Shown here piece by piece: positions 4,461-21,712 of a DNA stretch of 64,000 nt. The notes under the pieces were generated by a model, which was given only the letters and a program-made list of their open reading frames with translations, was not told where the DNA came from and did no database searches. The stretch is from Candidatus Scalindua rubra. GTDB taxonomy: Bacteria > Planctomycetota > Brocadiia > Brocadiales > Scalinduaceae. Position 1 is the stretch's first letter, and each line of letters starts with the position of its first letter. The translations under genes were made by a program, and so were the position numbers. The stretch spans positions 1-64,000 of the forward strand of contig MAYW01000004.1 in assembly GCA_001723765.1 (NCBI GenBank), given 5' to 3'.

Positions 4461-4961
4461 ATGTCCAATGAAGGGATTCCTAATCAATGTCTTTATGTAG
4501 ATCTGAAGACATGGTTACCAGAGCAACTTTATTTTACTGATTCTGTATCAATGGCTCATTCCATAGAAAACAGATTACCTTTTCTAGATCATGAACTGGC
4601 TGAATTTGCATTTTCAATTCCTTTTGATATTAAAATGAAAGGTATTAAGTTGAAACATCTACTTAGGTCTGCAGTTGCTCCTATTCTTCCGCAAGAAATA
4701 TTAAAGCAGAAAAAACTTGGTGCGGGATCACCTTTTCCTGTATGGGTTATCAATGAGGCAGAAGTGAAAGAAATGGTGATGGATACTCTCTCAGCAAACA
4801 ACCTGAAGCAAAACGGTTTTTTTAACACTTCTTTTGTATCCAAGCTGATTGAAGATCATCTCAACCTTAAAACTAATAACGGTTATAAGCTGTGGAGTTT
4901 ATTAGCTTTTACAAAATGGCATGAACTATATATCCAGAATAGCCCGGTATTGAGTAATTGA
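4461..4961 (+). pseudogene. C-terminal fragment of an asparagine synthase (AsnB-like)
   Basis: The 166 residues match only the last quarter of glutamine-hydrolysing asparagine synthases: YVDLKTWLPEQLYFTDSVSM, then ENRLPFLDHELAEFAFSIPF, the GIKLKHLLRSA segment and a KLGAGSPFPVW stretch. Full-length enzymes have about 600 residues with an N-terminal glutaminase domain and an SGGxDS ATP-binding loop; both are missing here. The fragment lies about 200 bases beyond the inferred right end of the IS110 element, so deletion or insertion may have removed the rest. A full-length relative is encoded at 17916-19769. Expression and function are unlikely. Confidence 0.8.
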
Positions 4962-5157
4962 TAGTAGGAAATAGATAATAGATAGTGGATAGCAGATAGT
5001 AGATGGATAAAGAAGGATACCAGCCCGACATCGTTCTGGCGGGTAAGAAGCTGAAGATTTGGCAGTTATCAGTTGAAAAAATGCATTCAACAGATATCTT
5101 AAAGAAATAGACATTTATTTTTTGAATCTAATAACTAACATCTATCATCAGTTATCC
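4958..5157. mobile_element. Internally deleted four-helix-bundle cassette (MITE-like)
   Basis: A GATAGTAGATA-type repeat (4967-5006) is followed by a 35-codon mini-ORF (5003-5110). This fuses the first residues of the four-helix-bundle protein at 21036 (KKLKIWQLS) directly to its last residues (VEKMHSTDILKK). Complementary CTATCATC-type repeats follow at about 5124-5157. The intact gene at 21036-21431 has the same ends and flanks, so this copy looks like an in-frame internal deletion of a close relative. It also carries a short insertion (5019-5042) absent from that copy. It separates the asparagine-synthase fragment from the AbrB-like gene. Confidence 0.65.
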
Positions 5158-19769: not shown

Positions 19770-20952
19770 AATACTTAAAATATGCCATATCGGCTGGGCT
19801 CACAGTATACATGTGGAAAGATTAATGCGGTGGTTTGCCAGGAAGGGACATATTATTTCTATCATTACGGATCATCCTAAAAATATCGATGGAGTTGAGG
19901 TCTATGATATACGGAGAAAGCCTGACCCAAGACCACGATTAGAAAGGTATAAAGATTTTCATTTTAATATAAGGTGGAAATGGCTTTATAGATTAAATGA
20001 AATTGTTCGCATCAAAAAATTAGTCGATGAAATATCACCAGATATCATTCATTCACATTCACTGTGGTATCCAGGTTATTTTGGTGTTTATTTAAAAGGC
20101 TATCCTTTTGTTATAACAGTGCTGAATGGAGATATTCTGTGGAAGAAGGATGGTATAGATATTTATACTAGATTAAGAACAAATTGGGCTATGAAAAAGG
20201 CCGACATTATAACGGGTGTGTCGAAAGAATTGGTAAACGCATGTATAAGATATGGGGCAAATAAAGATAGAGTACACGTAATGCGTAGAGGTGTTAATTT
20301 ATCAAAGTTCAATTATGGTGGGAGCAAAGCTGAAATTCGACGTAAACTTGGACTTCCAGAGAGTGCTAAAATAGTTTTGAGTCCTCGCAATATTGGCTCG
20401 TTCTACAATGTAGATAAGATTGTTGAGGCCATACCAAGAATAATAAGAGAAGTAGAAGATGTTAAATTTGTCTTTATCTGGCATGGGCATAATAAAGAAA
20501 GAGAAGAGAAGTTAAATAATCTCGCTTCAAAATTAGGAGTTAAGGAATTCATAAGAAATGATGGTGTTGTTAGTCATGACAAAGTTGCTCTTTACCACAA
20601 GGCTTCAGACGTAATGGTTTCCGTGTCTCAACATGATTCTGGTCCTGTTGCATTACAGGAAGCCATGGCATGTGGGGATGTCCCCGTTATAAGCAATTTA
20701 TCTTGTGTACGTGAATGGATAACTGATGGATGGAATGGGCTATTAGTTGAACCAAATAATGTTAATCAAATTGCTGAATCTACAATTAGACTACTAGAAA
20801 ATGGCCAAATGATAAAAACCTTTGCTGAGAGAAATTGGAAATTAATTCAAGAAAAAGGTAGTCAGGATTATTGGATGGGAAAGATGGAGGAATTGTATTA
20901 CAAACTATTAGCAGGCAAAAGAAACAGGGGATCGCTTGCAGATAGTAGATAG
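19762..20952 (+). CDS. Family 4 glycosyltransferase
   Basis: A 396-residue GT-B retaining glycosyltransferase. The N-terminal acceptor domain begins ILKICHIGWAHSIHVERLMR. The C-terminal donor site shows the E-x7-E type motif in DSGPVALQEAMACGDVPVI, followed by NGLLVEPNN. ATG 19762 is chosen because it overlaps the stop of the asparagine synthase-like gene (ATGAGTGA); an upstream TTG at 19735 has no ribosome-binding site. It closes the block 15497-20952, which reads as one operon. Donor and acceptor sugars cannot be told from sequence. Confidence 0.88.
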   Translation: MSEILKICHIGWAHSIHVERLMRWFARKGHIISIITDHPKNIDGVEVYDIRRKPDPRPRLERYKDFHFNIRWKWLYRLNEIVRIKKLVDEISPDIIHSHSLWYPGYFGVYLKGYPFVITVLNGDILWKKDGIDIYTRLRTNWAMKKADIITGVSKELVNACIRYGANKDRVHVMRRGVNLSKFNYGGSKAEIRRKLGLPESAKIVLSPRNIGSFYNVDKIVEAIPRIIREVEDVKFVFIWHGHNKEREEKLNNLASKLGVKEFIRNDGVVSHDKVALYHKASDVMVSVSQHDSGPVALQEAMACGDVPVISNLSCVREWITDGWNGLLVEPNNVNQIAESTIRLLENGQMIKTFAERNWKLIQEKGSQDYWMGKMEELYYKLLAGKRNRGSLADSR

Positions 20953-21503
20953 AAGATAGAAACAAGAAGGGAAAAGATTGGAGATGGTAGATGGTAGATA
21001 ATGGACAGTAGATGATAGATAGTGGATAGTAGATAATGATTGATAAGGAAGGACATAAGAAACTGAAAATTTGGCAGTTGTCACACAAATTGGGAATTAA
21101 GGTTCATAAGATGTCTTTGGCTTTGCCTAAGTTTGAAATGTTCGAAGAAGGAAGTCAGGTCAGAAGATCATCCAAGTCTGTGTCAAGTAACATTACGGAG
21201 GGTTATGCTTTGAGAAGATATAAAGCAGAGTACATCCACTATTTGTTCAGGGCTTATGCTTCGAGCATGGAAACAGTAGAACATTTGGAGTATCTTTACG
21301 AAACGAACTCTTTAAAAGATAAATCGGCTTTTGATGAAATGATAAATGAATATTCTGAGCTTAATAAAATGCTTTTTTCATTCATAGAATCAGTTGAAAA
21401 GATGCACTCAACAGATATCTTAAAAAAATAGAAATATTTTTGTATCTAACATATAAAATCTATCATCTATTATCTTACATTCTATATCTTATATCTAAGA
21501 AGT
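20939..21503. mobile_element. Four-helix-bundle cassette with GATAGTAGATA-type ends
   Basis: A run of GATAGTAGATA-like units precedes the gene (20939-21037). Complementary units (AATCTATCATCTATTATCTT and related) follow it (21442-21500), so the two sides can pair. The enclosed gene is a complete four-helix-bundle protein. The element at 4958-5157 has the same ends and the same gene start and end, with the middle missing. Further CTATC repeats at 21660-21697 suggest several rounds of insertion here. Confidence 0.55.
21036..21431 (+). CDS. Four-helix-bundle protein (23S rRNA-IVP family)
   Basis: A 131-residue PF05635-type protein: KKLKIWQLSHKLGIKVHKMS (helix 1), EEGSQVRRSSKSVSSNITEG with the conserved N-I-x-E-G motif, then an aromatic-rich third helix (YIHYLFRAYASSMETVEHL) and a fourth helix ending VEKMHSTDILKK. 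It is complete in length. Relatives are encoded in intervening sequences of 23S rRNA in several bacteria and as free-standing genes; biochemical function is unclear. It lies between the GT4 and an epimerase in a polysaccharide locus and is flanked by complementary repeats, so it is probably a passenger. Confidence 0.88.
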   Translation: MIDKEGHKKLKIWQLSHKLGIKVHKMSLALPKFEMFEEGSQVRRSSKSVSSNITEGYALRRYKAEYIHYLFRAYASSMETVEHLEYLYETNSLKDKSAFDEMINEYSELNKMLFSFIESVEKMHSTDILKK

Positions 21504-21515
21504 GGAATACAATAA

Positions 21516-21584
21516 TTTATTAAACAATACAATGAAGTAGGTAAGATCCTAAAAGGTCTTCATGACAATTGGAAAAAGTACTAA
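21516..21584 (+). pseudogene. C-terminal scrap of a second four-helix-bundle gene
   Basis: After a stop codon, a frame reads FIKQYNEVGKILKGLHDNWK and ends with TAA at 21582-21584. This resembles the last helix of four-helix-bundle proteins, which often ends in an E-V-x-K-x-L pattern. No upstream part remains. It lies between the CTATC repeats of the preceding cassette and more of the same repeats at 21660-21697, so this spot seems to have received more than one cassette. Confidence 0.35.
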
Positions 21585-21712
21585 ATCTCACTATTTCTTG
21601 CGCCTCACTTCTAACTTCTTGTTTCTTGAATTATCTAACTTCTCGCAGCTAAGCCCTTCAATTATCTAAAATCTGTCATCTGTTATCTACTATCTAAAAA
21701 AGGAGTTTTACT

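Follow-up and report, generated by a model that had tools for sequence, protein, structure and literature searches.

The segment at positions 4958-5157 is most probably (a probability of about 0.75) a decayed copy of an insertion unit that resembles the intervening sequences (IVSs) of 23S rRNA and that carries an S23p gene between heptad arms. It lies in a stretch of 64,000 nucleotides from Candidatus Scalindua rubra (contig MAYW01000004.1), here called the window, in which an intact sister unit is found around a gene at 21036-21431. Both copies, and all the features described below for the window, are on the forward strand.

The intact gene at 21036-21431 is a member of the PF05635 family (23S rRNA IVP / S23p), with a Pfam E-value of 6.7e-25 and 87.8 bits against a curated cut-off of 33.8 bits. 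Its product is predicted to be a four-helix bundle (AlphaFold pLDDT 90) and matches the S23p structures 2gsc (TM 0.82) and 2rld, which share its fold and its sequence family and are silent on the flanking arms. No function is known for S23p proteins. Upstream of the gene, outer and inner left arms were recognized at 20940-21035 by sequence, fold, and duplex. Downstream of it are the right arms at 21444-21697, the inner one at 21444-21499 and the outer one at about 21585-21697. The fold of this unit has a z-score of -2.9, and the arm duplexes have z-scores of -5.0 (inner) and -4.0 (outer). The two arm pairs are nested, as though an older unit had received a second one within its hairpin; a further segment, 21504-21580, lies between the right arms.

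When 4958-5157 was searched against its own genome with BLAST, the right half matched 21389-21474 (83%, E-value 1.6e-19), and a second match was found at 21009-21053 (87%, E-value 7.6e-8). No place in the genome except the 21036 locus shares both ends. An earlier note on this DNA had proposed such an alignment as a check, and the similarity does run beyond the coding ends into both outer flanks. The remnant ORF (5003-5110, 35 codons) is translated as MDKEGYQPDIVLAGKKLKIWQLSVEKMHSTDILKK. In it, KKLKIWQLS and VEKMHSTDILKK correspond to residues 8-16 and to the last 12 residues (120-131) of the 131-residue protein encoded at 21036-21431, and the start is also common to the two (MDKEG and MIDKEG). 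Thus, the note correctly stated that the mini-ORF joins the coding ends of the intact gene and erred in taking KKLKIWQLS for the first residues. Its statement that the flanking repeats are alike holds for the right side, where ATCTATCATC is present at 5140 and at 21458. On the left, the mini copy is flanked by sequence with GATAGTAGGA and GATAGTAGATG; the exact 11-mer GATAGTAGATA, which occurs at 20941 and 21025, was not found there.

Comparison with the intact sister revealed that the deletion fused two TCA triplets (5069-5071), TTGTCA^CAC and GAATCA^GTT of the sister being joined as TTATCAGTT in the mini copy. The remnant at 5003 lacks the family core and gives no match to the PF05635 profile. 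The left arm of the gutted unit (4960-5006), made of degenerate GATAGTA-type heptads, aligns with 21009-21053. The right arm (5126-5157) is complementary to this left arm and aligns with sequence flanking the 21036 gene. RNA folding predicts that the left arm pairs with 5140-5157 over 17 bp with two mismatches, the z-scores being -3.1 for the whole fold and -3.0 for the composition-normalized arm duplex; the shortness of these arms counts against the reading preferred here. The neighbors of the two copies in the window are protein genes (asparagine synthase; glycosyltransferase and epimerase). Judged by these alignments, 4958-5157 is an internally deleted copy of an S23p four-helix-bundle unit that has kept both of its ends.

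Complementary heptad arms around S23p genes

Is this arrangement common? S23p genes were sampled from the own genome, from its relatives, and from 80 loci of many phyla including archaea. The flanks of the 80 related loci have a lag-7 autocorrelation of 0.40 on the left and 0.38 on the right (control, 0.26), corresponding to degenerate tandem heptads. The right and left arms are complementary to each other: with the cut-off set at the 99th percentile of 286 control ORFs, 63 of 74 units score higher. Of 36 loci sampled in the own genome and in the order to which the window belongs, 27 pass this cut-off, which leaves about a quarter of the order loci, and 11 of the 74 in the broad set, without complementarity above it. 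Raw RNA duplex energies failed to separate the units from the controls because their GC contents differ. Composition-normalized z-scores did separate them: the median for the arms is -3.4 (control, -0.1), and 67% of the units have a z-score below -2 as compared with 5% of the controls.

The heptad word differs by locus, with GATAGTA, GGCAGTAA, GGGTTGC, and GGATGCT among the examples. The coupling between arm word and protein lineage is moderate (Spearman 0.37, calculated from non-independent pairs). When arms were paired across loci, 42 of 74 had their own partner among the five best; this control is weak because words such as GGATGCTGGATAC recur at many loci. Two loci in the same metagenome-assembled genome (MAG), L095 and L098, have nearly perfect left arrays of at least ten GATGCTC and of ten GATGCTG, respectively, and their S23p proteins are 87% identical. 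The one-base difference is homogenized along the array, which hints at turnover of the word.

The orientation of the units is biased. Of 69 units, 64 share their strand with the gene upstream, and 53 with both neighbors. Several units lie inside recognizable gene pairs, for instance just before pheT in Verrucomicrobia (gene names were read from the translation). Carriers of intergenic units include Fulvivirga (L115), Niabella (L112), and Rhodohalobacter (L137). When 437 kb of the own genome were scanned for more heptad hairpins, the 21036 unit was the only convincing one; the second detector recovered two of seven positive controls, a yield too low for the scan to indicate absence.

Duplication, loss, and gutting of the units

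Two places in the own genome (L002 and L004) hold one and the same unit beside different neighboring genes; the two copies have related arms, and their 442-bp cores are 96% identical. Similarly, two archaeal loci (L079 and L091), which come from MAG or draft records whose taxon labels need care, are 92% identical from arm to arm and have unrelated flanks. An orthologous site in the genus g2 was found in several states. Three species (G009, G010, and G012) have a full unit, and G015 has a full unit of another lineage. In G008, a unit of the G015 lineage has been gutted with both arms kept, leaving a 37-bp stem (fold z-score, -4.1; arm z-score, -7.1). Only a left-arm remnant is present in G001, and the site is empty in G003 and G016. 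G008 is therefore an independent second case of the gutted structure seen at 4958-5157. Among the wider relatives, in-frame stops are present in more than twenty of the listed matches, indicating that decay is common. Neither a clean target-site duplication nor a fixed terminus was found for the units. The presence/absence comparison suggested in the earlier note thus yielded full, gutted, arm-only, and empty sites, and these results support its view that the gene and its ends are one entity: the four-helix-bundle gene and both arms appear, are lost, are duplicated, and are gutted together at different sites. The same g2 site also holds toxin-antitoxin genes, namely HicA/HicB by the gutted hairpin in G008 (L146) and a PemK/MazF-type toxin in G011 (L149); this intergenic site looks like an insertion hot spot.

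Might S23p be an ordinary host gene with a regulatory hairpin, so that the mini copy is a pseudogene of a tandem paralogue and nothing is mobile? A microhomology deletion and subsequent decay require no element, and the purifying selection on the S23p protein fits a host function. However, units at unrelated sites share arms but not flanks (L002/L004 and L079/L091), and the unit is present or absent at one site within the genus g2. Furthermore, there are 10 divergent copies per genome, and one S23p protein has 76% identity with that of a record labeled Gemmatimonadota, although both cross-phylum examples as well as the window come from MAGs, whose contigs can be misbinned. A host gene is therefore an improbable explanation, though the best of the alternatives.

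The earlier note saw in the mini copy the relation of a MITE to its parent element and regarded it as the best evidence that the unit moves. Indeed, the coding interior has been lost, both ends are retained as in MITEs, and an intact relative exists in the same genome, whose protein might act in trans on a multiplying non-autonomous unit. However, neither the own genome nor 62 genomes of the order contain another copy with the same ends and a different interior length, and the deleted form has therefore not multiplied. Unlike at a MITE, no target-site duplication is visible at 4958/5157, and the related ORF encodes a non-transposase protein. Among the 21 codons common to the mini copy and the 21036 gene, there are six differences, all of which are synonymous third-position transitions (the chance of all six being synonymous is about 0.001-0.002). 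This implies that the two had diverged as working proteins before the deletion. On this codon comparison, the mini copy descends from a sister of the 21036 gene, not from the 21036 gene, and is to be regarded as a decayed paralogue. The gutted copy of G008, at a site that is full in a sister species, likewise points to deletion in place. A true MITE is thus very unlikely; taken by itself, the mini copy speaks for decay, and it is the other loci that speak for movement. It is hardly credible that the 35-codon ORF is a working fusion micro-protein, since its open frame across the deletion and the 24-bp insertion described below amounts to a one-in-nine chance for two in-frame events, selection before the deletion accounts for the fact that every difference from the sister gene is synonymous, and the family match and the four-helix core are gone.

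Likeness to rRNA intervening sequences

The reading of 4958-5157 as a decayed insertion unit likens it to rRNA IVSs, whose origin and mobility have been open questions for decades (PMC4990558). In the 23S rRNA of Coxiella burnetii, the IVS contains an S23p ORF and is closed by a 28-bp terminal stem that RNase III cuts; the ORF is preceded by tandem GACAGAT heptamers, two or three of them according to strain, and one strain has a 176-bp deletion in the ORF (PMC4990558). In the units described here, too, complementary ends close a loop that contains a PF05635 ORF with tandem heptamers ahead of it, and the ORF can be deleted while the stem stays. The closing stem is found in both window copies and across loci, whereas the long-form S23p ORF is present in the intact sister and lost in the mini copy. 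In contrast to rRNA IVSs, the units lie between protein genes and have their own heptad word at each locus, and the window contains no rRNA and hence no insertion in a 23S rRNA helix. By this comparison, the unit is not an rRNA IVS itself and likely works like one. In the literature covered, heptamers beside S23p were found only in the Coxiella paper (PMC4990558), most subscription journals lying outside the scope of the search. Intergenic TAACTGA arrays in Beggiatoaceae are also heptamer arrays shortly upstream of start codons, but they are direct repeats of one fixed word (PMC4679880), whereas the word of the present units varies by locus and two complementary arms enclose a PF05635 gene. 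Avd of diversity-generating retroelements (4dwl) has a similar four-helix fold (TM 0.82 by target, the fold alone being compared), although its match to the 21036 protein is weak (E-value 0.21, 11% identity).

An intact unit is a small PF05635 gene between degenerate heptad arms, the right arm being the reverse complement of the left. It is oriented in the sense direction, and the genes on either side of it are probably cotranscribed. Transcription would then run across the unit, and its RNA would fold as in a 23S rRNA IVS, the arms forming a long stem and the gene occupying the loop. The stem may insulate the insertion in the mRNA and may be cut by a double-strand-specific RNase such as RNase III. 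An S23p pentamer may bind the nucleic acid of the unit and help it to spread, perhaps with a reverse transcriptase or a recombinase acting in trans. In the mini copy, a deletion between the two TCA triplets removed most of the gene, and a dispersed 24-bp palindrome entered its 5′ coding end, leaving a stem-loop without a working protein.

A broader reading is more tentative and perhaps somewhat less likely to be true than false. PF05635 units outside rRNA may be very widespread small mobile elements of bacteria and archaea that are inserted in the sense direction in operons and whose complementarity outlasts the word. The 23S rRNA IVSs would be the special case of insertion into rRNA, and from gutted copies like 4958-5157 it would follow that the stem, not the protein, is what persists at a site. 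If units with the same protein, heptad stem, and manner of gene loss occur frequently between ordinary genes, they offer many independent insertions, empty sites, and stages of decay for comparison, and their movement, the role of the stem in mRNA, and the role of the protein become directly testable.

A palindromic repeat nested in the remnant ORF

The earlier note had missed a 24-bp palindromic repeat at 5020-5043 (CCAGCCCGACATCGTTCTGGCGGG), which makes up 24 bases of the mini-ORF and is foreign to the four-helix-bundle gene. Allowing up to 3 mismatches, 15 copies were found in the genome, as compared with none for a reversed control pattern. In variants, for example CCTGCCCGAC..GTTCAGGCGGG, the two halves of the stem change together. 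Homologues without the repeat read GYKKLKIY where the mini-ORF reads GY-QPDIVLAG-KKLKIW, which places the repeat between TA and TA of GGATATAAG.

Like REP/RAYT palindromes, the insert is a short, GC-rich, imperfect palindrome that is dispersed and has a covarying stem. Unlike them, it exists in about 15-30 copies, lies inside an ORF, and has no Y1 transposase partner among ten genes checked. The own genome (G000, one 5.2-Mb assembly) has 25 matches to Y1_Tnp (PF01797), comprising HuH transposase genes and fragments. At the 10 of these 25 loci that were checked, no RAYT gene flanked by the same repeat was found. The repeat belongs to a dispersed family of GC-rich palindromes of 24-30 bp (CCAGCCCGAC..GTTCTGGCGGG and covarying variants), often located between TA and TA. 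The family is present in at least two genera (5020-5043 and L040-L064; G008, C157:3562-3592), and G008, which belongs to another genus, has an identical 31-bp copy.
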